Positions 6,839 to 55,100 of a stretch of 64,000 nt of DNA are shown one piece after another. The notes under the pieces are model-generated. The model ran no database searches, was not told the origin of the DNA, and worked only from the letters and a program-made list of their open reading frames with translations. Position numbers and translations under genes: made by a program. This DNA is from Roseovarius sp. ZX-A-9 (GTDB lineage Bacteria; Pseudomonadota; Alphaproteobacteria; Rhodobacterales; Rhodobacteraceae), in contig NZ_JAPWHW010000006.1 of assembly GCF_028369135.1 (NCBI RefSeq), positions 1 to 64,000 on the forward strand, read 5' to 3'. Every line of letters begins with the position of its first letter. Within the stretch, counting starts at the first letter, position 1.

Positions 6839-6928
6839 TGGCGGAGCGACAGGGATTCGAACCCTGGAGACGGTCTCCCGCCTACACACTTTCCAGGCGT
6901 GCGCCTTCGACCACTCGGCCACCGCTCC
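6839..6928 (-). tRNA. tRNA-Ser (anticodon GGA)
   Basis: The minus strand reads GGAGCGGTGGCCGAGTGG at the 5' end, an anticodon loop CTGGAAA giving GGA, a long class-II variable arm, the T-loop GGTTCGAATCC and an encoded CCA end. The acceptor stem pairs throughout with one G-U at the seventh pair. The anticodon decodes UCC and UCU serine codons. A terminator follows at 6791-6812. Confidence 0.97.
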
Positions 6929-7742: not shown

Positions 7743-10228
7743 CGCCCGTCTCCGTCCCCGTCCCCATCAGGCGTCCCGTCCGGGTCTTCGATCCGCTGGG
7801 ATGGTCCAGCCTTGCCTTTCCTGGGCTTCGCCTTGGTCGGGGCTGGTTTGTCGTCATCCCTGGCCTCTTTGGGAGCGCCACCCATAGCCATCTGGGCCAG
7901 CACCTCGGGATTGCGCAGCCAGATGTCGCGCTGAGCATAGGGGATTTCGATACCTTCCTCTGCAAAGCGTCTGGCAATCTCGTGGTTCATTTCCGATCTG
8001 ACGGTCATCACCCAGTTCACATCGCGCAGGATCGCGCGAATTTCGAAATCCAGAGAATCGGCGCCAAAACTCTTGAACACCACCGCTGGCTCTGGATTGA
8101 TGATAACCATCGGGTTGGCCATGGCAATCTCCTTGAGAATGCCTTCGACCTTTTTCGTGTCGCTGCCGTAAGCCACACCGACGGGCACGATCACCCGGCC
8201 CACAGTGTTGCCGCGCGTGTAGTTGGTGACCGTTCCGCTGACCAGGTCGGCGTTCGGGATGATCAGGTCAGAGCGATCGAATGTCTCGATCCGGGTCGAG
8301 CGCACCGAGATTTCGCGCACAGTGCCGTGCTGGCCGTTGACCTCGATCCAGTCGCCCTGGCTGATCGGGCGTTCGATCAAGAGGATGATGCCGGATACGA
8401 AGTTTGAGACGATGTTCTGAAGCCCGAAACCGATACCGACGGACAGCGCACCGGCAACGATCGCAAGCGAACTGAGGTCGATCCCCGCAGAGGTCACTGC
8501 GACGAGGGCTGCCAGAAAGATACCTATATAGCCGACGCCCGACACGATGGCGTTTCGCCCGCCCGCGTCCAGCTTGGTCTTGGGAAGCAGGGTGTTCTTC
8601 AGTGTCCCCTGCAACAGCCGCGTCAGCACCATCCCCGCGGTAAAGATTGCCGCGAGCGTCAGGAAGATCGTCGGCGAAATGGTCATTTCGCCCAAGGTGA
8701 TGCCCTTGGTGAACTGGGTCCATAACTCGGACAGGTCCGCCACCCGCGCACCCCAGATCAGGGCAAAGACTGGCGCTGACAGGATCACGATGGCAAAACT
8801 CATCAGCACCGGCACCAGATCGTCCGCCGCACCCTCTCGGTCACCCGAGATCAGCGTGTAAACCTCCGAGATCACGCGCTGGATCACCAGCAGGGCCGCC
8901 AACACGAGCAGCGACAGAAGCGAGGGCAGCATCAACGACGACGCTGCCTTGAAATATCCGACCGCAGCCAGAGCAGGAGACAGTACCGCGAGCGCGATCA
9001 GCGCATTCGCCAGAAGCCGGGTCAGCCGGTTGCGGTAGGTATTGGTGTGCTCGTTTGTGGCCGCGTTCCGGCTGTGCTTTGACAACAACCGTGCCAGACG
9101 CAGCAGCAACAGCCCTGCAATCACCATCACGGGGAAGAGAACCACGTTGATCGCCGCCTCGGACCAGGCGGTGACCCTGGCGATCTCGACGATGAAATAA
9201 AAGGCCGCGATGATTAGCCCCAACGAAGCGCCATACCAGCGCCCTGCCCTGCGGTCCTCTGCCTCCAGCGCCAGCGGCGGCCGGTGAGTTTCAAGGCGCG
9301 GAAAGCAGCGCAGCGCCAGCCAGCGCGCCAGCAGGAAGATCACGAAAGCCGGCTTCAGCGCGATCAGCACCAGATCTCCACGCAGCCCGACGAGCCCACT
9401 GGAATAGGCCGCCTGACTGATCAGGAGCAGACCGATGAAGGGCACGAAAATCTCGCCCAGAGACATCAGCAACGTGATGATCCAATGCGCTGATGTTGCG
9501 CGCTGTGGCAATGCAAAGCGCACCGCCAGCTCCACCCAGAACCGGCCACGTATCAGCAGGATGCAGCCCAGCAGCGCCAGCACGATGATCGTGGGCAGGT
9601 TGCCCTTCGTCTCCATGCGCTGGATGTCGTTCTGCCACGCGATGATCACTTCCGAGCGTACGGATTCGACCGTGTTGGTGATGGCATCCAGCCCTGCGGG
9701 CCAGTTCTTGGGGTTGAGGGGCGACGGCCCGAGCTGCAACAGCGCATCGGTCTGACGATCACGGATGATCTTGTCGATACCCTTGATCAGTCCATCCGCC
9801 TGGCTGTAGGCCAGTTGCGCGCTCTTGACCGGTGCGTTCAGGCGGTTGAGCCGTTCGGCCAATTCTTTGCGTTGTCGCTCGATATCGGGGCTTTCGCCAC
9901 CCTCTTCGGGAACAGGTCCAAGCGCCTTGATCTGCGCTTCGAGCGTGGAGATGGCGTTGCTGTTGGTGTCCTGCGCGGCTGCGAAGATGTCGCGCCAGTC
10001 TGCCAGTTGGTCACGCAGATCCTCCAGCGCGGGCGTGGACGCGCGCGCCGCTTCGATGGCATCCGTGGCCCGCTGAACGGTGGAGATCCATTTGGCGTAG
10101 TCGGGACCGGCATTTGCCTGCTGGGCATCGGCGGTGCCGGTCGTCACGACATAACCAAGCGTCAGTGGCGCCAGTGCCAGCGCCCATACCACGACAAGTC
10201 GGCGCAACAGCGGCAGCAACGACGTCAT
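7739..10228 (-). CDS. Large MscS-family mechanosensitive channel with DUF3772 N-terminus
   Basis: An 829-residue membrane protein. Residues 1-36 form a signal peptide (LVVVWALALAPLTLG, then A-D-A-Q). Next comes a periplasmic helical DUF3772-type region of about 200 residues, then about ten membrane helices, then the MscS core with GFGLQNIVSNFVSG and ISQGDWIEVNGQHGTV near residues 590-640, and a Lys/Pro-rich cytosolic tail. The start at 10228 is used because ATG overlaps the cysK stop as ATGA; a longer frame adds 41 residues without a signal sequence. The family opens under hypo-osmotic membrane tension; large members can be regulated by their periplasmic domain. Confidence 0.88.
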   Translation of the reverse strand: MTSLLPLLRRLVVVWALALAPLTLGYVVTTGTADAQQANAGPDYAKWISTVQRATDAIEAARASTPALEDLRDQLADWRDIFAAAQDTNSNAISTLEAQIKALGPVPEEGGESPDIERQRKELAERLNRLNAPVKSAQLAYSQADGLIKGIDKIIRDRQTDALLQLGPSPLNPKNWPAGLDAITNTVESVRSEVIIAWQNDIQRMETKGNLPTIIVLALLGCILLIRGRFWVELAVRFALPQRATSAHWIITLLMSLGEIFVPFIGLLLISQAAYSSGLVGLRGDLVLIALKPAFVIFLLARWLALRCFPRLETHRPPLALEAEDRRAGRWYGASLGLIIAAFYFIVEIARVTAWSEAAINVVLFPVMVIAGLLLLRLARLLSKHSRNAATNEHTNTYRNRLTRLLANALIALAVLSPALAAVGYFKAASSLMLPSLLSLLVLAALLVIQRVISEVYTLISGDREGAADDLVPVLMSFAIVILSAPVFALIWGARVADLSELWTQFTKGITLGEMTISPTIFLTLAAIFTAGMVLTRLLQGTLKNTLLPKTKLDAGGRNAIVSGVGYIGIFLAALVAVTSAGIDLSSLAIVAGALSVGIGFGLQNIVSNFVSGIILLIERPISQGDWIEVNGQHGTVREISVRSTRIETFDRSDLIIPNADLVSGTVTNYTRGNTVGRVIVPVGVAYGSDTKKVEGILKEIAMANPMVIINPEPAVVFKSFGADSLDFEIRAILRDVNWVMTVRSEMNHEIARRFAEEGIEIPYAQRDIWLRNPEVLAQMAMGGAPKEARDDDKPAPTKAKPRKGKAGPSQRIEDPDGTPDGDGDGDGR

Positions 10229-42582: not shown

Positions 42583-42927
42583 TCAGCTCTCGCCGCGCGT
42601 CCGTGCCTCTTCGGATAGATCGGCCCACCAGCTTGCGTAGCTGCTGTTCTTGGGATGCATCCCGCCCTCGTCCGGCGCGCCGTCCTGCCACCAGACCGGG
42701 CCGCGCTCACCAAGCCGTCGCTTGGCCGCATCCACCGCCGCGCGCTGCGCCGCGGCCTCCGAAGCGTCCGGGGTGCCAATCAGCCCGCGCCGCGCTTGCA
42801 TCAATGCCTTGATGGCTGCGCGCCGCTCAGAGTCCGATAGCCGCGGATCAGTACACCGCCAGAGTCGACCGCGCGACACGAAATAGCGCCCGTCCGGCGT
42901 GGTGGGATAATCCTTCTTGCCGCTCAC
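42583..42927 (-). CDS. Small conserved protein, function unknown
   Basis: A 114-residue soluble protein with the pattern PDGRYFVSRGRLWRCTDPRLSD at residues 10-31, a central Ala/Arg-rich helix (about 55-75) and RLGERGPVWWQDGAPDEGG. Homologues with this layout are common in proteobacteria and sometimes carry misleading transporter names; no activity is known to me. Its ATG overlaps the stop of the Atm1-type exporter gene (ATGA), so it is co-translated. Confidence 0.7.
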   Translation of the reverse strand: MSGKKDYPTTPDGRYFVSRGRLWRCTDPRLSDSERRAAIKALMQARRGLIGTPDASEAAAQRAAVDAAKRRLGERGPVWWQDGAPDEGGMHPKNSSYASWWADLSEEARTRGES

Positions 42928-44771
42928 GCTGCCTCTTCCGCCTGCTGGCGAGCCCAGAGCCCCGCATAGCGCCCGCCACTCGCCAACAGAGCGGCATGGG
43001 TGCCTTCCTCGACAATGCGCCCGTCTTCCAGCACGACGATGCGATCCGCATCGGCCACGGTCGACAGGCGGTGTGCGATGATCAGCACGGTACGCCCTCG
43101 CCCCGCCTGTGCCAGCGCGCCCTGAATGTCGCGTTCCGTCTCGGTATCGAGCGCCGAGGTGGCCTCGTCCAGAAGCAGGATCGGCGGGTCTTTCAGCAAG
43201 GTGCGCGCAATGCCGACGCGCTGCTTTTCCCCGCCCGACAGTTTCAGGCCGCGCTCGCCCACCGGCGTGTCATACCCCTGTGGCAGGCTGTCGATGAAAT
43301 CATGGATTTGCGCGGCCTTTGCCGCGGCAATCACATCGGCCTCGCTGGCGTTCGCCCGCCCATAGGCGATGTTGTAGCCAATCGTATCGTTGAAAAGCAC
43401 CGTGTCCTGCGGCACCACGCCGATGGCATCATGCAAGCTGTCCTGCCGGACGCTCCGCAGATCCTGCCCGTCGATGAAAATCGCCCCGTCCTGCACATCG
43501 TAGAACCGGAACAGCAGCCGCCCGATGGTGGATTTGCCCGACCCTGTCGGCCCGACGATGGCTACCGTTTCGCCGGGGGCGGCCGTCAGGCTTACGCCTT
43601 TGAGGATCGCACGATCAGCCTCGTAGCCGAAATGCACATCGCGAAACTCGACCTGCCCGCCCTTGACCTTCAGCCCCGCTGCGTCCGGCGCATCCGTCAC
43701 ATCCGGGGGCTGCTCCAGCAGGCCGAACATCTCGCCCATATCCACCAGGCTCTGGCGGATTTCACGGTACACCGTGCCGAGGAAATTAAGCGGCATGGTG
43801 ATCTGGATCATGTAGGCGTTGACCATCACGAAATCGCCCACCGTCATGGCCCCGCTCTGCACCCCCATGGCCGCCATGACCATCACGATCACCAGCCCCG
43901 CAGTAATCAGCAGCGACTGGCCAAAGTTGAGAAACGCCAGCGAATAGGAGGTTGAGAGCGCCGCACTCTCGTAACCTGCCATCGCCGCATCATAACGCAT
44001 GGCTTCGCGGTCCTCGGCGCCGAAATACTTGACGGTTTCATAGTTCAGCAGGCTGTCGATTGCTTTTTGATTGGCATCGGTATCCTGGTCATTCATCTGC
44101 TTGCGCAGCTTGACGCGCCACTCGGTCACCTTGAACGTGAACGCCACATAAAGCGCGATCACAACCACCACCACTGCCAGATACCAAAAATCAAACAGCG
44201 TCCAAAGAACGATCCCGATCAGCAGCAGTTCGATCACCAGCGGCCCGATGGAAAAGAGCAGAAAGCGCAGCAGGAACTCGACGCCCTTTACACCGCGCTC
44301 GATGATACGGCTCAGCCCGCCGGTCTTGCGGGTGATGTGGTAGCGCATCGACATCGCATGGATATGCCGGAACGTGCGCAGCGCCAGCGCCCGCAAGGCG
44401 CGCTGCGCGACACGGGCAAAGATCACATCGCGCAACTGTTGAAAGCCGACATTCAGCAGCCGTGCGCCGCCATAGGCAACGGTCAGGCCGACCGCGCCGA
44501 AACCAAGCATCCACCCCGCACCTGTCGCGTCCCCCGCCAGCGCATCGACAGCCGCCTTATAGAAAAACGGCGTGCCAACCGCCACCAACTTGGCCAGCAG
44601 CAGCACGATCAGCGCCAGCACCACGCGCTGCTTTACCCAAGGCTGGTCGTCCGGCCACAGGTAGGGCGCGACCCGGCGGATCGTGGTCCAGCCATTGCTG
44701 GGCATCTCGGTCGTGGTCAGGTGGCTACGGCGCATCTGGTACTTTCGAATTTTGCGGACCGGCCTTGGCAT
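42924..44771 (-). CDS. Atm1-type ABC exporter (permease-ATPase fusion)
   Basis: A 615-residue half transporter working as a homodimer. Six helices (about 48-330) precede the nucleotide-binding domain with Walker A VGPTGSGKSTIGRL (about 405), signature LSGGEKQRVGIARTLL (about 510) and Walker B ILLLDEATSALD. The segment NYETVKYFGAEDREAMRYD is typical of Atm1/ABCB7/HMT1, exporters of glutathione-linked sulfur or metal compounds. The start at 44771 is chosen for AGGATAGG upstream, though an ATG 12 codons later would also include the domain. It could link with the glutathione genes in the window, by inference only. Confidence 0.9.
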   Translation of the reverse strand: MPRPVRKIRKYQMRRSHLTTTEMPSNGWTTIRRVAPYLWPDDQPWVKQRVVLALIVLLLAKLVAVGTPFFYKAAVDALAGDATGAGWMLGFGAVGLTVAYGGARLLNVGFQQLRDVIFARVAQRALRALALRTFRHIHAMSMRYHITRKTGGLSRIIERGVKGVEFLLRFLLFSIGPLVIELLLIGIVLWTLFDFWYLAVVVVVIALYVAFTFKVTEWRVKLRKQMNDQDTDANQKAIDSLLNYETVKYFGAEDREAMRYDAAMAGYESAALSTSYSLAFLNFGQSLLITAGLVIVMVMAAMGVQSGAMTVGDFVMVNAYMIQITMPLNFLGTVYREIRQSLVDMGEMFGLLEQPPDVTDAPDAAGLKVKGGQVEFRDVHFGYEADRAILKGVSLTAAPGETVAIVGPTGSGKSTIGRLLFRFYDVQDGAIFIDGQDLRSVRQDSLHDAIGVVPQDTVLFNDTIGYNIAYGRANASEADVIAAAKAAQIHDFIDSLPQGYDTPVGERGLKLSGGEKQRVGIARTLLKDPPILLLDEATSALDTETERDIQGALAQAGRGRTVLIIAHRLSTVADADRIVVLEDGRIVEEGTHAALLASGGRYAGLWARQQAEEAA

Positions 44772-46895: not shown

Positions 46896-47447
46896 ATGGC
46901 AGAACACTCGGTCTGTGTCTTTTGCGGCTCACGCGATGGGGCAAATCCGGCATACGGTGCGGCGGCAGACGCCGTGGGCGCAGGTCTGGCGGAGGCGGGA
47001 TGGCGGCTGGTCTATGGTGCCGGCGACGTCGGGCTGATGGGGCGCACCGCCCGCGCGGCACAAGCGGCCGGTGGCGCGACCTTCGGCGTGATCCCCCGGC
47101 ACCTCGTGCGGTGGGAAGTAGGCAAACGTGATCTGACCACCTACGTCGTCACCGAGACCATGCACGAGCGCAAGAAGGTCATGTTCATGAACTCGAACGC
47201 CATCGTGGTGCTGCCCGGCGGTGCCGGATCGCTGGACGAGTTTTTCGAGATTCTCACATGGCGGCAACTGGGGCTGCACGAGATGCCGATCCTGCTCCTA
47301 GATGTGGACGGGTACTGGCAGCCGCTGACCGGGCTGATCGATCATGTCATCGATCAGGGCTTTGCCGAACCGACGCTGCGCGACTTCTACAGAGCGGTGC
47401 CGGATGTGAGCGCGCTCTTCGCGGCCCTGCGAACCGCCCTGTCCTGA
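46896..47447 (+). CDS. LOG-family protein (TIGR00730)
   Basis: A 183-residue Rossmann-like protein of the LOG/lysine-decarboxylase-like family. It begins SVCVFCGSRDGANPAYG and contains the nucleotide-binding and catalytic motifs GAGDVGLMG, ERKKVM and LPGGAGSLDEFFE (about 105-117). LOG enzymes cleave nucleoside 5'-monophosphates such as cytokinin ribotides at the N-glycosidic bond. The ATG at 46896 begins the family sequence. Its last 61 bases overlap the 3' end of the convergent rarD-like gene. Confidence 0.93.
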   Translation: MAEHSVCVFCGSRDGANPAYGAAADAVGAGLAEAGWRLVYGAGDVGLMGRTARAAQAAGGATFGVIPRHLVRWEVGKRDLTTYVVTETMHERKKVMFMNSNAIVVLPGGAGSLDEFFEILTWRQLGLHEMPILLLDVDGYWQPLTGLIDHVIDQGFAEPTLRDFYRAVPDVSALFAALRTALS

Positions 47448-48304
47448 CGCCAGGTCGCGGCGGTGTAGATCGCCAGCGCGACCCAGATCATCGGGAAGGT
47501 GACCATGTGCCAGAGCGTGAACGGCTCCAGGAAAAGAAGTGTTGCAACAATGAATTGCAAGCTCGGGTTAATGTATTGAATGAGGCCCACCGTAGCCATC
47601 GACACCCGTTTTGCCGCCATGCTGAACATGATCAGCGGCCCGCCTGTCAGCACCCCGGAAAACATCAGAAGCGCCACGTCACGCCAGCCGGAGCCAAACA
47701 CGCCGGTGCCACCCGGATGGGTGTACCACAGCACCACCAGCGCGATCGGTGCAAGGATCATGACTTCGGCGGCCACGGACACCACCGGCCCCTGCGCGAT
47801 GCCCTTCTTGATCAGCCCGTAAAACCCGAAAGAGCCGGCAATGATCAGCGATATCCATGGCGCGACCCCCAGCCCGACGGTCAGCGTCACGACGGCCGCC
47901 AGCGCCAGAGCGACGGCAACGGCCTGCGCCGCGCTCATCCTTTCGCGGTAGACGGCGGCTCCCAGAGCCACCGAAACCAGCGGGAAGATGAAGTAGCCCA
48001 GCGATGCCTCGATCGCCATGTCGATCTGGATCGACGTGATGAAAACCAGCCAGTTGGTCGAGATCATTATCGCCGCGAGCCCGGCCAGCATCATCGCGCG
48101 TGGCGACCGGAACACGGCCAGCAACACCCGCAACCGCCCCTGCCACAGCAACACCAGCGTGAAAAAGACACATGACCAGATCGTGCGATGCGCCAGCACC
48201 TCGAGGGGCGGGATATGCGCGAGCAGTTTGTAGTAGATCCCCGAGAGGCCCCAGATCGTGCAGGCCACAATCATTGCAATGACACCGCGTGTTGCTTCGG
48301 TCAT
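47387..48304 (-). CDS. rarD: EamA-family permease, RarD type
   Basis: A 305-residue transporter with ten predicted helices in two EamA halves, starting RGVIAMIVACTIWGLSGIYYKLLAHIPPLEVLAHRTIWS, which is diagnostic for RarD. RarD-like members are presumed metabolite exporters; chloramphenicol is only a historic link. Its start overlaps the marR stop (ATGA), so it is probably controlled by that regulator. The final 61 bases are antisense to the LOG gene. Confidence 0.92.
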   Translation of the reverse strand: MTEATRGVIAMIVACTIWGLSGIYYKLLAHIPPLEVLAHRTIWSCVFFTLVLLWQGRLRVLLAVFRSPRAMMLAGLAAIMISTNWLVFITSIQIDMAIEASLGYFIFPLVSVALGAAVYRERMSAAQAVAVALALAAVVTLTVGLGVAPWISLIIAGSFGFYGLIKKGIAQGPVVSVAAEVMILAPIALVVLWYTHPGGTGVFGSGWRDVALLMFSGVLTGGPLIMFSMAAKRVSMATVGLIQYINPSLQFIVATLLFLEPFTLWHMVTFPMIWVALAIYTAATWRQDRAVRRAAKSALTSGTAL

Positions 48305-48970: not shown

Positions 48971-49570
48971 TTACATCCGGCTGGCGACGTTTTCCCAGTT
49001 CACCAGGTTGTTCAGGAAGTTTTCCAGATAGGCTGGCCGCTTGTTGCGGAAGTCGATGTAGTAGGAATGTTCCCACACGTCGCAGCCCAGAAGAACTGTC
49101 TGATCGAAGCAGACCGGGTTCACACCGTTTTCGGTTTTGGTGACGGCAAGCGATCCGTCCTTCTTCTTGACCAGCCACGCCCAGCCCGAGCCGAACTGAC
49201 CGGCGCCTGCGGCCGAGAACTCTGCCTTGAACTTGTCGACCGAGCCGAAGTTGTCGTTCAGGGCCTTTTCAAGCTCGCCGGGCATCTTGCTTTCACCGGG
49301 GCTCATCATTTCCCAGAACTGGTTGTGGTTCCACAACTGGCTGATGTTGTTGAAGATACCGTTTTGCGCCACGGCATTCGCGTCATAGGTGCCCTTGATG
49401 ATCTCTTCGAGAGACTTGCCCTCCCATTTGGTGCCCTCGATCGCCTTGTTGCCGTTGGTGACATAGGCGTTGTGGTGCAGGTCGTGGTGGTATTCCAGCG
49501 TTTCGGCGGACATGCCGTGCGGTGCCAGAGCATCGTGGGCATAGGGAAGATCGGGAAGTTGAAAGCTCAT
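48971..49570 (-). CDS. sodB: Superoxide dismutase, Fe/Mn family
   Basis: A 199-residue cytosolic SOD converting superoxide to peroxide. The metal ligands appear as H in LEYHHDLHH (about residue 27), H in QLWNHNQFW (about 78), D and H in DVWEHSYY (about 160-164). The motif set and AGAGQFGSGWAWLV fit the iron-type enzymes of alphaproteobacteria, but metal choice cannot be fixed by eye. The ATG at 49570 has AAGGAGG upstream; a longer frame is non-homologous. Confidence 0.95.
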   Translation of the reverse strand: MSFQLPDLPYAHDALAPHGMSAETLEYHHDLHHNAYVTNGNKAIEGTKWEGKSLEEIIKGTYDANAVAQNGIFNNISQLWNHNQFWEMMSPGESKMPGELEKALNDNFGSVDKFKAEFSAAGAGQFGSGWAWLVKKKDGSLAVTKTENGVNPVCFDQTVLLGCDVWEHSYYIDFRNKRPAYLENFLNNLVNWENVASRM

Positions 49571-49906
49571 GGATTGCCTCCTTTGGTGCGTGCCATATTT
49601 CATAAACAGCGTCTTGCGTTTTTCCTGACTGGGGAAAAATGCGAAACGCCCGTCGTCCTTCGCAGTTACGAACATTTTGCATTCGATCCGTGTACCGGAT
49701 CAAACGCAAAACGCTTTCGTCTACATGGTAGACCTGTGGGCATAACGTCAACCCCGTACCGCAAGTTCCCCACCTCTGGACATCAGAGATGGCCCCCAAA
49801 AAGCGGCGCGCACGAGGCCGATATAGACTTTCGCCCGACAGTCCCCTAGAATCTCAAGAAAAACTATAATCGAGGCAGCGTTTTAAGGGAAGGCCGGGCA
49901 GGCAGA
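49571..49906. promoter_or_regulatory. Divergent region sodB / Asn-synthetase-like gene with two inverted repeats
   Basis: Two inverted repeats stand 17 bases apart in these 336 bases: GATCCG-TGTAC-CGGATC at 49685-49701 and GTCTAC-ATG-GTAGAC at 49719-49733. The second resembles a TetR-type palindrome. They are 115-165 bases upstream of sodB and 170-220 bases upstream of the plus-strand gene, so either could be controlled. Confidence 0.5.
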
Positions 49907-51478
49907 ATGCAGGACATGTCATTTCTATCGTCGCCGGTGGCCCCGGCGTGGGAAACCCGTGCGAGCTGGGCAGAGCAGCTCTGCGCCGATCAGCAGATCG
50001 ACAGCGCGCCGGTTTTGTCACAGCAATTCCTGCTGGCTCCCAGCGGGACCGCCGCCCCTGCCGCCATGCGTGGCGTGGCCCTGGGGAGCTGGATCCTCTA
50101 CCACGGCGCGAACCTGCCGGTCGCCTCGGCCCCGTTCGGCGATGGCAGGATCGCGATACTGGGCCTTGCCGTCGATCCCGATGGCGCGGTGATCACCACC
50201 GCGCGGCTGGAGGCGCTGACCGCGCGCGACATGCCGCCGCTGGAGTTGCTGGATTGGCTGAACGACAGCGCCGGGCGCTATGCCATCATCGCCATCACCG
50301 GGACATATCAGCGGGTCTATCTAGACAGTCTCGGCTCTCTGGGCGCGGTTTACGACCGCGACGCAGGGCGTGTCGGGGCGACCACGAACCTTGTGCTGAC
50401 CCGCGCGCCGCAACCCAATACCGACTATCCTCTGACGAGTGGCGCAGCGACCGGCCCGGATCGCTTTGCCTTTGGCCATACGCCCGATATCGCGGTCAAG
50501 CGCCTGCTACCCAATCATTTTCTTGACCTCAGGCTCTGGGCGCCGGTACGGCACTGGCCCGGTCCGGACGACGTGACCGAACCGTCCCCCGAAGCGGAGG
50601 CCGATGTGGTGCGCGGCATCACCCGGCGGCTGGAACAGGTGATCGCCAGCCTTGCGAACCACCTGCCCGGCAATGTGCATCTGCCGCTATCTGGCGGGCT
50701 GGACAGCCGCCTGTTGCTGAGTTGCGCCAAGCCGGTGCTGGACAAGATCAAGCTGTTTTCGCATGTCGAAAACTCAATGAGCCGCAAGGATCTGCGGCTG
50801 GCGCGGCATCTGGCCAAGCGCGTCGGCGCGCCACTGCGCGAGATCGATCCGATACGCCACGATGCCTTCAAGATAACCAGCGAAAGCCGCCTGGATCATC
50901 TGGGCAAGCTGCACCGCATCATTACCGGCCTTGACGATGCACCGCAGCCGATCCGGCACGAGGTTTTGCTGGCGCATCCGCCCGGCGGCATTTTCCTGCG
51001 CGGCAACGGCATCGATTTCCTCAAGGCCGTGCTGTGGCGGCGCGGCGCCCGCGAATACGAACAGAGCCTGCCCCACGACACCCGCACCGGTATCCGCATG
51101 ATGATGCTCTCGGACAAGAGCATCGTCGACAATCCGGCAATCCAGCAGATGTACGAAGACTGGTATGCCACCCTGCCCGGCTCGGCTCGCGAGCGGGCCT
51201 ATGACCTGATGTTCGCCGAACAGTTCCTGTCGCACGGCTTTGGCAACCTGCTCTACAGCTTCATCAACAATTTCTATGTCTGCCCGTTCAACGACCGGCG
51301 GCTGCTGGGCGCAGCCACGGCGCTATCGCCGAGCAAACGCAGACAGTTGCATTACAATCTGGCAATTACCGAATGGCGCGCGCCGGAACTGTCCAGCCTG
51401 CATTTCGCACGCCGTGCGGTGAACGCTCACATCAAGACCATCCGGGCGAGCGGGACCGATATCATTTCTCTGGCATAA
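49907..51478 (+). CDS. Asparagine-synthetase-like protein with degenerate glutaminase domain
   Basis: A 523-residue protein. The C-terminal half is an ATP-pyrophosphatase domain of the asparagine synthetase superfamily: PP-loop LPLSGGLDSRLLLS (about 259-272) and the late block CPFNDRRLLGAATALSP. The N-terminal half keeps elements of the Ntn glutaminase fold (GRYAIIAI, YLDSLGSLGAVYD) but lacks the N-terminal catalytic cysteine (it starts MQDMSF), so it should not release ammonia from glutamine. The same state is seen in beta-lactam synthetase and lasso-peptide cyclase. It probably adenylates a carboxylate for amide formation. No precursor peptide or biosynthetic partner is visible next to it. 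Confidence 0.75.
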   Translation: MQDMSFLSSPVAPAWETRASWAEQLCADQQIDSAPVLSQQFLLAPSGTAAPAAMRGVALGSWILYHGANLPVASAPFGDGRIAILGLAVDPDGAVITTARLEALTARDMPPLELLDWLNDSAGRYAIIAITGTYQRVYLDSLGSLGAVYDRDAGRVGATTNLVLTRAPQPNTDYPLTSGAATGPDRFAFGHTPDIAVKRLLPNHFLDLRLWAPVRHWPGPDDVTEPSPEAEADVVRGITRRLEQVIASLANHLPGNVHLPLSGGLDSRLLLSCAKPVLDKIKLFSHVENSMSRKDLRLARHLAKRVGAPLREIDPIRHDAFKITSESRLDHLGKLHRIITGLDDAPQPIRHEVLLAHPPGGIFLRGNGIDFLKAVLWRRGAREYEQSLPHDTRTGIRMMMLSDKSIVDNPAIQQMYEDWYATLPGSARERAYDLMFAEQFLSHGFGNLLYSFINNFYVCPFNDRRLLGAATALSPSKRRQLHYNLAITEWRAPELSSLHFARRAVNAHIKTIRASGTDIISLA

Positions 51479-51528
51479 GATCGCGCCCGCCCCCCCCTGC
51501 TGAACACTTGGGTTCCTGAACGCGGATC

Positions 51529-51562
51529 ATCGGAAAGACCTTCATGCGAAAGCCTTTCCGAT
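51529..51562. terminator. Hairpin between convergent genes
   Basis: ATCGGAAAG and CTTTCCGAT form a 9-bp stem around a 16-base loop between the Asn-synthetase-like stop and the soxG stop. T runs are poor on either side, so its efficiency as a bidirectional terminator is uncertain. Confidence 0.5.
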
Positions 51563-51569
51563 TGGTTCT

Positions 51570-52142
51570 TCAGGCGAGATAGCCCACCGCGCTGCCCGGG
51601 GCGGCGGCGCCCTTGAGCAGGTCGAACACATACTGCGCGACCGAGCGGAAGCAGACGATACGCACGCTGTTTTCATCCGGCATCCAGAACGCAGCCGGAA
51701 CCTGTGCCATACGGGTGCGCCGGAAATCGCCGGCGCCAAAGGCGCCCACCGCCATGTCCACCGGACAAAGCTTGGCGATCACTTCGCGCACCACCGGGCC
51801 GCCCGACAGTTCGAACACCGCGCGGGCATCCGAGACGTTGACCGCCATATGGTGCTGCTTTGCCAACGCCTTGCCCAGCGCTTCCAGCCGCGCATCCACT
51901 GCGTCGTAAGGCACAAGGATCAGCAACTCGTCCGGGGACATCCAGGCGATGCCCGAGTCATCCTTCACATTTGCCTTTCGCTGGCCGGGCATGTCCTGCC
52001 CGGTGGCTGCTGCCGCGGCCTTCTTGAGGGCGGTGTTTCCCAGGTCGCCGCGCAGGGTGATCATCCCCTGCAAACCGATTTCGCGGACCTGGGCGATCCC
52101 GTCATAGGATGCGCCTTGCAGCGCGCTTACTGCCTCAGACAT
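51570..52142 (-). CDS. soxG: Sarcosine oxidase gamma subunit
   Basis: A 190-residue subunit of heterotetrameric sarcosine oxidase. It resembles a GcvT/YgfZ-like fold (LRGDLGNTALKKAAAAATG, WMSPDELLILVPYDA, DARAVFELSGGPVVREVIAKLCP). It helps assemble the enzyme complex. It overlaps the soxA stop by 8 bases and is the last gene of the operon. Confidence 0.92.
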   Translation of the reverse strand: MSEAVSALQGASYDGIAQVREIGLQGMITLRGDLGNTALKKAAAAATGQDMPGQRKANVKDDSGIAWMSPDELLILVPYDAVDARLEALGKALAKQHHMAVNVSDARAVFELSGGPVVREVIAKLCPVDMAVGAFGAGDFRRTRMAQVPAAFWMPDENSVRIVCFRSVAQYVFDLLKGAAAPGSAVGYLA

Positions 52143-55100
52143 TTTGCTTCTCCCCGTCCTTGTCGAAGAACACCGGATCGACGATCCTGGCCTGCGTCAC
52201 CGGCCCGCCAATGCGCGGGATATCCAGTACCTCGCCCATGCGGTCCGGCCCGTGCAGGACCAGCGCCATGGCGATCCCGCGATCCAGCGTCGGTGAATGG
52301 TAGGTCGACGTGACCCGCCCCTGCACATTGCGCTGGCCATTGGCGTTCGTGCCCTCGGCGACGATATAGGCCCCATCGGGCAGCGTGCTGCCATCGAGGG
52401 TTTCCAGACCGACCAGTTTCCAGCGGTTCGGATCGGTCATGTGGCTGCGGGCCTGCGCACGCTTGCCAAGGTAATCCTCTTTCTTCTTGGATATTGCCCA
52501 GTTCAGCCCCAAATCCTGCGGGATCACGGTGCCGTCGGTCTCGTCCCCGATCATGATGAAGCCCTTTTCGGCCCGCATGATATGCAACGCCTCGGTCCCG
52601 TAGGGGGTAACGCCATGGGCCGCACCGGTCGCCAGCAGCAGATCCCACAACGCGCGGCCCTGCGAAGCTTTGACCGCGATCTCGTAGCTAAGCTCGCCCG
52701 AGAACGAAATCCGGTAAACCCGTGCCGCCATACCGCCCAGCATGATGTCTGCCCAGCGCATGAAGGGCAGCGCCTCGGCCGAGACATCATCCCCGGTCAA
52801 GGCAGACAGAACCTCGCGCGCCTTCGGTCCGACAAGAGCGATCTGCGCATATTGCTCTGTCACGTTGGCAACGTAGACGTCCCAATCCCACCATTCGGTC
52901 TGCAGCCATTCTTCCATGTGGCCATGGATGCTCTCGGCGCCGCCGGTGGTGGTGTGGCACAGGAACGTCTGATCGTCGATCCGCGCGACAACGCCGTCGT
53001 CTATCAGGAACCCGTTCTCGTTGCACATCAGACCGTAACGGCAGAAGCCCGGTTTCAGGCTCGACATCATGTTGGTGTAGAGCATGTCGAGAAACTTGCC
53101 CGCGTCCGGCCCCTTGACCAGAAGCTTGCCCAGTGTGGAGGCATCCAGCAGCCCGAGGCTGTTCCGCGTTGCCAGAACCTCGCGCTTGACCGCATCCTCG
53201 ATGCTCTCGCCGTCCTTCTGGTAGCAGTAAGGGCGACGCCACTGGCCCACCGGCTCCCAATAGGCGCCGTTTTCGGCGTGCCAGTCATACATCGCCGTCC
53301 GGCGCAGCGGCTGGAAGCGCTCGTCGCGCGCCTCGCCCGCGATTGAGGCCATTGAAATCGGCGTGTAGGGTGGTCGGAACGTGGTGGTGCCCGTCTGCGG
53401 GATCGGCTGGCCCAGCGCGTCCGACAGGATCGCCAGCCCGTTGATGTTGCTCAGCTTGCCCTGATCGGTCGCCATGCCCAACGTGGTGTAGCGCTTGGCG
53501 TGTTCGACGCTCTCGAAGCCCTCGCGGGCTGCCAGCTGCACATCCGACACCTTGACGTCATTCTGGTAATCCAGCCAGGCTTTCATCCGCTTCTTGATGC
53601 CAGCACCGTGCGGCATCATCCACACCGGTGCCATCGGTGCCTCTTCAACGGTTTCCGCCTCCGGCGGCGCGCCTTTCTTCGGCGTGTGGCCAGTGGCCGA
53701 GGCTGCCGCCTGCCCTGCCGCGTCCGCGTCGCGCAGCACATCGTCCAGCACCAGTGCGCCGTTAGCGCTGCCAGCCGCAATAACAAAGGCTTCGCCCGAA
53801 GCACCGGTCGGTGCCTTATCCACATCGGGGCGGAAATAGGCGTGATCGGTATCCCAGATCAGTTTGCCGCCGCAATGCGACCACAGGTGCACGACCGGCG
53901 ACCAGCCGCCCGACATAGCCACCGCGTCGCAGGCGATTTCTTCCAGCACGGCGCCTTCGCCAGCCTGGCTGCAGATCTCCACGCCAGTCACGCGTTTGCC
54001 GCCCTTGACCGAGGAGATCCCGTGCCCCATCAGCACCCGGATGCCCAGAGCCTTGGCCTCAGCCATCAGGGCGCTGTCAGTTGGCAACACCCGCGCATCA
54101 AGGATCACAGGCACGTCGAGCCCCTGCTTTTTCAGGCAGATCGCGGTGCGGTAAGCATCGTCGTTATTTGTCACGACAACCGTCCGATCGCCCAGCGAAA
54201 CCCCGTAATTGACCGCATAGTCCCGCACGGCAGAGGCCAGCATGACGCCGGGAATGTCGTTGCCCGCAAAGCTGAGCGGGCGCTCGATGGCACCGGTGGC
54301 GGTGACAATCTGCCGGGCGCGGATGCGCCACAGGCGGTGGCGCGGGCCTGCCGCCTCGGGCTGATGATCGCCAACACGCTCGTAGCCCAGTGCGTAACCA
54401 TGATCGTAGACGCCCGCCCCCATCATGCGATTGCGCAGGGTCACTTTGGGCATGTTTTCAAGCGCCGCAACGGTTTCGTCCACGAACTTGTCCACAGGCT
54501 GCCCGTCAACAGTGCCGCCATCGACCGGGGCCCGTCCGCCCCAATGCGGGGTCTGCTCGATCAACAGCACCTTGGCACCGGCCTCGCCCGCCGCCCTAGC
54601 GGCCTGCAGACCAGCCACACCGCCGCCGACCACCAGCACATCAACGAAGGCGTAGAAATGCTCGTAAGTGTCGGTGTCGCGGTCCTTGGGCGCGCGGCCC
54701 AAACCTGCGGAACGGCGGATGAACGGCTCGTAGACATGTTTCCAGAAAGGGCGCGGGTGGATGAACATCTTGTAATAGAAGCCCGCAGGCAGGAAGCGGC
54801 TCAGTTTGGAGTTGATCGCGCCGATGTCGAATTCGAGCGACGGCCAGTGGTTCTGGCTGGTGCAGGTCAGTCCATTGAAAAGCTCGGTCGTGGTGACGCG
54901 CTGGTTGGGCTCGAAGCTGTTGCCCTCGCCCATGCCGACGAGGCCATTGGGCTCTTCGGCGCCAGAGGCCACGACGCCGCGCGGGCGGTGATATTTGAAC
55001 GAGCGGCCGATCATCATGTGATCGTTTGCCAGCAATGCCGAGGCGATGGTGTCCCCCTCGACGCCACGCAGGCGCATGCCGTTGAAGGTGAATTCCAGGC

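Follow-up and report, generated by a model that had tools for sequence, protein, structure and literature searches.

In asparagine synthetase B (AsnB) the lysines K430 and K450 have a catalytic role, as have Lys423 and Lys443 in beta-lactam synthetase (BLS), and a Tyr-Glu catalytic dyad is found in the beta-lactam and carbapenam synthetases. BLS and the carbapenam synthetase CarA have no glutaminase Cys, a residue that is present in the uronamide synthases WbpS and WbqG. According to the excerpted text of PMC7468200, the WbpS uronamide occurs in a P. gingivalis linking sugar that also bears an N-linked seryl group. Disruption of asnH was found among phage-resistant mutants of L. casei; the L. 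lactis AsnH homolog amidates D-Asp of peptidoglycan, and the exact site in L. casei was left open in the available part of that source (PMC3885529). The AS-like nitrile synthetase PesC is described, in the extract of PMC13060819, as acting on a peptide C-terminus with glutamine or ammonia, the AS-like enzyme adenylating the peptide carboxylate on the way to a nitrile.

Here we describe a gene, designated Q, in a window of 64,000 nucleotides (the whole stretch of DNA analysed) from Roseovarius sp. ZX-A-9. No publication treating the Q family was recognised among the papers listed by the literature searches. Q and its parts are as follows.

49907-51478, forward strand: Q, predicted Asn-synthetase-fold protein of 523 aa (ORF, AlphaFold2 model, fold matches, dN/dS)
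49907-50020, forward strand: N-terminal extension, residues 1-38, preceding the position that corresponds to the catalytic Cys of AsnB (structural alignment, AsnB residue 1 aligned with model residue 39)
50021-50566, forward strand: N-terminal domain, about residues 39-220 (approximate bounds), predicted glutaminase-like fold without the nucleophile Cys (structure, hhalign, column count)
50690-50710, forward strand: ATP-pyrophosphatase loop S-G-G-L-D-S-R, residues 262-268 ([ST][GA]GxD[ST]R in 59/65 rows)
50996-51016, forward strand: L-R-G-N-G-I-D, residues 364-370, aligning with AsnB LSGxGxDE (hhalign, column counts)
51284-51298, forward strand: P-F-N-D-R, residues 460-464, aligning with AsnB/BLS P-F/Y-x-D (profile search, alignment)
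51338-51340, forward strand: R478 (column with Arg in 62/65 and Lys in 3/65 rows)
51419-51421, forward strand: V505, near BLS Lys443 and AsnB K450 (Met counted; approximate, from end points of structurally aligned ranges)

Gene Q and its predicted fold

Q is one intact ORF, as an earlier note on this DNA had reported, and the motif SGGLDSR named there was likewise found. Orthologs of 87% and 85% identity were found, and dN/dS (NG86) was 0.13 and 0.10 against two orthologs and 0.10-0.17 for each domain alone. The identity of the orthologs and the low dN/dS values argue against a chance ORF; Q is a real single gene under purifying selection, which acts on both domains.

For the family alignment, 73 strong hits were reduced to 70 rows (more than 440 aa, no stops) and then to 63 rows at less than 80% identity, to which L037 and L038 were re-added to give 65 rows. 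Among those left out were L058 and L193 (broken frames), L063 (no strong hit), the near-duplicates L047, L048, L039, L054 and L191 (more than 80% identity) and a copy from G057 (L020), whose contig measures 3.4 kb. An AlphaFold2 model built from the 65-row alignment had a pLDDT of 94.3 and a pTM of 0.93, with residues 1-15 below pLDDT 50. Its top structural match was CarA (Z 20.3, 397 residues, rmsd 4.3), followed by TsnB9 (Z 19.6), BLS (19.4) and E. coli AsnB (19.2), with aligned spans of 369-411 residues for these four; human ASNS reached Z 15.9 and the next families at most 7.8. Since CarA, TsnB9 and BLS were tied (less than 1 Z unit apart) and AsnB lay only 1.1 under CarA, the nearest function cannot be read from the structural matches.

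Against PDB sequences the family profile matched CarA (6.6e-6) and BLS (8.8e-5), and phmmer with the single protein gave no match up to E 1. Alignment of the family with 11 AsnB sequences by hhalign had a probability of 97.8% (E 8e-13) and extended from about residue 114 to 375. The likeness to Asn synthetase without glutaminase, and to BLS, that had been proposed from the sequence is supported by these fold and profile matches. Clustering with standard AsnB had been named as a test of that proposal; Q lay under both AsnB cut-offs, with 19.7 bits for Pfam PF00733 (cut-off 21) and 18.3 bits for the NCBIfam model TIGR01536 (cut-off 267.1). Even at E 0.01, PF00733 was matched by 18 and TIGR01536 by 25 of the 65 rows. 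The PADLOC anti-phage defence models gave no match to the window's Q at E 0.1; among its relatives, QueC was weakly matched by two rows and LmuC by one. The predicted two domains and the ATP-pyrophosphatase loop place Q in the Asn-synthetase fold superfamily, and the sequence scores indicate that its family is divergent and nearly unannotated.

Active-site residues

At the column of the AsnB nucleophile (model residue 39, aligned with AsnB residue 1) Cys was found in none of the 65 rows. The catalytic N-terminal Cys is thus absent, as claimed before, and Q is not expected to hydrolyse glutamine in the usual way. The full ATP loop was present in 59/65 rows and altered in six (L059, L060, L061, L062, L110 and L113). 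R268 and G264 were each conserved in 64/65 rows, S267 in 60/65 and D266 in 59/65, and residue 370, the acidic position of the second motif, was D or E in 60/65. Loss of ATP-binding residues in orthologues had been put forward as a sign against a ligase of this kind: the close orthologs keep the loop, and it is altered in six of the 65 rows of the wider family. The altered loops include TAGHETR, TAGNETR and SGDVTSH; Wzy-type genes lie within 5 kb of L060 and L110.

K430 and K450 (E. coli numbering, Met counted) were invariant in the 11 AsnB sequences. Across columns 484-511 of the Q family, Lys occurred in at most 11/65 rows at any column. Column 505, which holds Val in the window's Q, had Lys in 7/65 rows, and the place of BLS Lys443, at about 505/506 of Q by structural range ends, was not conserved. 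Lys or Arg was found at column 507 in 30/65 and at column 509 in 27/65 rows, the window's Q having neither, so that other family members may carry a partial lysine substitute there. The AsnB-type lysine thus appears to be without a conserved counterpart in the family, a feature that the earlier note had not mentioned. This result is less secure than that on the Cys, because the C-terminal part of the family aligns weakly with AsnB by sequence (12-20% probability when taken by itself) and the structural correspondence of the lysine places was read from range end points only.

Distribution and insertion site

Scans with the Q protein or the family profile were run at E 0.001 on overlapping genus, family and order samples and on a phylum sample. 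Matches were obtained in 27/84 genomes of the genus sample, in 28/248 of the family sample (18 below 1e-40, the own genome included) and in 47/292 of the order sample (33 below 1e-40). The phylum sample gave 37/398, with one partial relative at 5e-35 outside the window's family; its other matches outside the family were at 2.6e-9 or worse, mostly to the ATP loop. The best-scoring candidates per genome were scored (six in the family, five in the order and three in the phylum sample, and seven in an order-sample search for a PLP gene described below), so weak relatives may be missed in these wide scans. In a scan of named genomes the two close relatives were an uncultured Roseovarius and the culturable Pseudohalocynthiibacter aestuariivivens, both Rhodobacterales; strain RR4-35 of the latter has an ortholog at 85% identity. 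A plasmid scan yielded five weak records. In the samples scanned, the family is almost confined to Rhodobacterales.

The own genome also encodes a second, very distant Asn-synthase-like protein of 521 aa with the loop SGGRDSR (L096/L114, G000:C44:223490; 16.6 bits for PF00733), and a further Asn-synthase-like protein with SGGYDSR was seen in L003 (C23). The DSR loop, as these sequences suggest, may be a marker of a wider class. On G041:C5 one match occurred three times, at about 13.5, 68.7 and 123.9 kb, with a spacing of 55.2 kb and identical scores; this is probably an assembly artefact.

The neighbourhood of Q in the window comprises the following genes, all named by eye.

42924-44771: ABC-transporter-like ORF (window ORF list)
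47387-48304: EamA/RarD-like permease ORF, part of the conserved sodB neighbourhood
48971-49570, reverse strand: sodB-like superoxide dismutase, left flank of Q (ORF list, locus comparison)
51570-52142, reverse strand: soxG-like gene (sarcosine oxidase gamma subunit), flanking Q on the right and convergent with it (ORF list, locus comparison)

A sodB gene was found in 82/84 genomes of the genus sample. Among the best 30 of these 82 loci, Q lay between sodB and soxG in five, the two genes were adjacent without Q in 22, and three had neither arrangement (one at a contig end). Since 22 of the best 30 loci show the junction without Q, insertion of Q into a conserved sodB-soxG junction is the most likely history, repeated loss being the alternative. 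Four genomes (L229, L241, L244 and L248) carry 0.7-1.2 kb of other sequence at this junction and no Q, and the junction may be a favoured insertion site.

The earlier note had stated that neither a precursor peptide nor a transporter is visible nearby, and had suggested a search for short ORFs in related loci. In 49300-52300, the 11 small ORFs that are not part of the three genes were compared with four orthologous loci, and no conserved precursor-like candidate was found, in agreement with the first statement. A small ORF at 49666-49773 (reverse strand) had a 53-54% match in L037-L039, inside the sodB leader; small ORFs from 52109 onward lie within soxA/soxG coding sequence, and all other matches were at E of about 0.1 or worse. 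The second statement is not exact, as the permease and the ABC-transporter-like ORF listed above show. An Rfam scan of the window gave nothing near Q; its sole match was a tRNA at 6842-6928 (reverse strand).

Genomic context of relatives

Gene calls at the relatives' loci were made with a simple caller, and gaps are approximate. Of 63 non-redundant loci, 32 were solitary, the window's Q included, and 31 had a co-directional neighbour within 100 bp. A PF13704-type glycosyltransferase lay within 5 kb of Q in 14/63 loci (1.3 expected) and a GT-A protein, A4, in 15/63 (0.18 expected). When a clpB-linked operon type common to seven rows was counted once, 8 and 9 contexts remained (1.2 and 0.16 expected). 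These ratios are rough, because the partner families were selected for their recurrence, their profiles were made from members of these same loci, and the background density was taken from a single genus, whose genomes were assumed to measure 3.8 Mb. The A4 model (pLDDT 85) had glycogenin and other GT-A glycosyltransferases as top matches. Proteins which we take, from a motif, to be sulfotransferase-like occurred near Q in 8/63 loci, and a second such type in 3/63; two sulfotransferase-like proteins compared with the sequences of solved structures gave no match. A UDP-glucose dehydrogenase type, a Wzy type and a PLP enzyme were each found in 3/63 loci, and at least one of the eight partner families in 22/63. 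The Q family is locally associated with surface-glycan modules, far above background.

Other co-directional neighbours of Q were a D-Ala-D-Ala ligase (L109), a TupA-type ATP-grasp (L188), a RimK/cyanophycin-synthetase-like ATP-grasp (L182) and the UDP-glucose dehydrogenase type (L181). The latter type also adjoins Q on the other strand in L179 and lies within 2 kb in L113, and an Ala-racemase-type gene adjoins Q on the other strand in L180. Among the neighbours read by eye, neither a maturation peptidase nor a peptide gene recurred.

Several further settings were observed, with genes named by eye. In the syntenic L041 and L042, Q has a D-Ala carboxypeptidase-like gene as its divergent neighbour. 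In L102 (G109:C49), Q at 8541-10112 stands among ribosomal protein genes and on their operon's strand, flanked by rpsQ-/rpmC-like genes on one side and rplV-/rpsS-like genes on the other, apparently inside an S10-type operon. One relative lies downstream of rpoB-/rpoC-like genes (L056, G065:C8), and others are single genes near housekeeping operons, with neighbours that resemble greA, malate dehydrogenase and cytochrome oxidase genes. In L108, L189 and L190 a MobA-like nucleotidyltransferase adjoins Q and is followed by a sarcosine/dimethylglycine-dehydrogenase-like gene.

In a quick tree of the family, the window's Q fell into a clade of 11 rows (SH-aLRT 100), made up of four rows at the sodB site, the solitary L041 and L042, four rows in glycan modules (L169, L043, L107 and L184) and L099. 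A gene resembling PLP Ser/Thr dehydratases directly adjoins Q in L099, L043 and L184, that is, in three of the four rows of the sister branch to the window's lineage (branch support 91). In the rows shown, this PLP enzyme scored under every NCBIfam cut-off. Its subgroup (E 1e-60) was found in 1/84 genus-sample and 1/292 order-sample genomes, beside Q in both, and a search for the gene in the window's genome did not find it. The glycan label, assigned partly by judgement, changed 12 times on the tree, with at least 10 changes on starred branches; none of 500 shuffles had so few changes (mean 19.1). Glycan context is clustered on the tree yet switched many times between solitary genes and glycan modules, so the solitary state of the window's Q need not mean a different function.

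The clpB-linked operon in the own genome

The own genome has a clpB-linked glycan operon on another contig (G000:C11), without Q. It comprises clpB, a PF13704 protein whose front part is alpha/beta-hydrolase-like, a sulfotransferase-like protein and two GT-A proteins. Seven genus-sample genomes (G003, G007, G012, G016, G030, G047 and G066) have Q at the end of this module and on its strand. G016 has two copies of Q, of which the first lies within the module; in G020, Q is on the other strand and the stretch seen does not include clpB. The Q frame of G032 is broken. Judging from these relatives, our guess is that the C11 operon makes the acceptor for the window's Q.

By raw genome counts, uncorrected for completeness, A4 was present in 26/27 genus-sample genomes with Q and in 43/57 without (p 0.03). 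This co-occurrence was set aside, as removal of the ten genomes with A4 near Q left 16/17 against 43/57 (p 0.17), and no genome-level association of Q with the glycan operon is therefore seen beyond linkage. Copy number of PF13704 did not differ between genomes with and without Q (means 6.5 and 6.8, p 0.40).

Proposed function

Our preferred reading, held tentatively and with somewhat less than even confidence, is that Q is an ATP-dependent amide ligase which decorates a surface glycan, perhaps by adding an amino acid, the likeliest acceptor being the product of the C11 clpB-linked operon. Q would bind ATP-Mg and activate a carboxylate as acyl-AMP, which an amine from solution or from its own substrate, not from glutamine, would attack; the conserved R268, R365, R464 and R478 may stand in for the missing lysine. 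The substrate would be a surface glycan or its precursor, and the product most likely an amino acid joined to a sugar through an amide. The PLP enzyme of three loci and the D-Ala-D-Ala ligase, ATP-grasp and Ala-racemase-type neighbours suggest the amino acid as one partner, and the glycan genes near relatives suggest the sugar as the other. Confidence is held down by the half of the loci that have no co-directional partner, by the negative search for the PLP gene in the own genome, by the lack of a genome-level association beyond linkage, and by the lysine loss. For the last of these reasons the amide-forming chemistry claimed in the earlier note is plausible but not assured.

A uronamide-forming enzyme that works on free ammonia, amidating a uronic-acid residue as WbpS and WbqG do and having no glutaminase of its own, is an unlikely alternative with some points in its favour. 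The excerpted PMC7468200 describes WbpS, of the Asn-synthase family, as making a uronamide in a surface sugar, and UDP-glucose dehydrogenase-type genes accompany Q in L179, L181 and L113. However, these are just 3/63 loci, the N-terminal Cys is missing, and the amino-acid-enzyme neighbours would suit an amino acid better than ammonia. We consider it equally unlikely that Q has kept the fold and lost ligase chemistry, serving as an ATP- or nucleotide-binding scaffold or regulator. The lost AsnB lysine positions and the six altered ATP loops would fit such a role, but the full loop in the other 59 rows, the acidic residue 370 and the purifying selection on both domains speak against it.

The small-molecule or macrocycle pathway suggested by the earlier note is considerably less probable. 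CarA and BLS are among the closest folds, and one of the 65 rows weakly matches an NCBIfam macrolactam cyclase (E 0.00068). Against this stand the lack of a conserved precursor-like ORF around Q and of a recurrent maturation peptidase or peptide gene among the neighbours of its relatives read by eye, the D-Ala carboxypeptidase-like gene of L041 and L042 being the one case, and recurring neighbours that are glycan genes; the relatives are either solitary or in surface-glycan modules. A lasso or macrocycle role is thus without support, and Q most likely helps to decorate the cell surface rather than to make a ring-shaped peptide. Other PP-loop chemistry, such as LarE-like sulfur transfer or nucleotide transfer, is very improbable: LarE is among the weak matches of 14/65 rows and of Q itself, but in Q the match is restricted to the ATP-loop region (residues 255-314), and the folds that match over the whole length belong to the AsnB/BLS type.

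The glycan-ligase reading can be extended to a broader proposal, which we regard as rather doubtful. Q would be the founding member of an uncharacterised, nearly Rhodobacterales-specific family of Asn-synthetase-fold ligases in which arginines replace the catalytic lysine; its members would couple amino acids to surface glycans and, as lone genes, would move between glycan operons and neutral sites next to housekeeping genes, each time altering the cell surface, for example a phage receptor. If the glycan-ligase reading is true, a fold chiefly associated with asparagine, lactams and peptide amides would gain a glycan-decorating branch, and selection on the ATP site could persist after loss of the AsnB/BLS lysine. 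Scattered, nearly unannotated proteins would become one testable system, made up of a single gene, a single candidate partner operon and a surface polymer of measurable composition.

Comparison with known systems

CarA and BLS resemble the Q model in a two-domain fold over nearly the whole length and in the ATP loop, and have in common with Q a glutaminase-like domain without Cys, followed by a synthetase domain. The differences lie in the end of the loop, which is DSR in Q and DSS in CarA/BLS, in the places of BLS Lys423 and Lys443, which are not conserved in the Q family, and in an identity of 16-17% among the matches listed; no beta-lactam genes were recognised by eye near Q. With E. coli AsnB, Q shares the predicted fold, the ATP loop and the LSGxGxD and PFxD motifs; unlike AsnB, Q has no N-terminal Cys and no counterpart of K430/K450, and it falls under both curated cut-offs. 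The adjoining precursor gene that is typical of a lasso peptide cyclase (C protein) was not found at Q in 49300-52300.

WbpS and WbqG are AsnB-type amidotransferases, whereas Q is without the glutaminase Cys and often stands alone. The sugar-nucleotide/O-antigen cluster that goes with WbpS-type enzymes is found around part of the relatives, the window's Q being solitary. As presented in the extract of PMC7468200, WbpS and WbqG are members of the Asn-synthase family that act in surface-glycan decoration. The cell-wall amidating enzymes AsnH/LtsA are likewise Asn-synthetase relatives acting on a surface polymer, and AsnH, unlike what is expected of Q, has glutamine amidotransferase activity, as given in the available part of PMC3885529. 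The hydroxyamidotransferase TsnB9 combines the Asn-synthetase fold with new amide-type chemistry in a natural-product pathway, and the same is described for PesC in the excerpt of PMC13060819.
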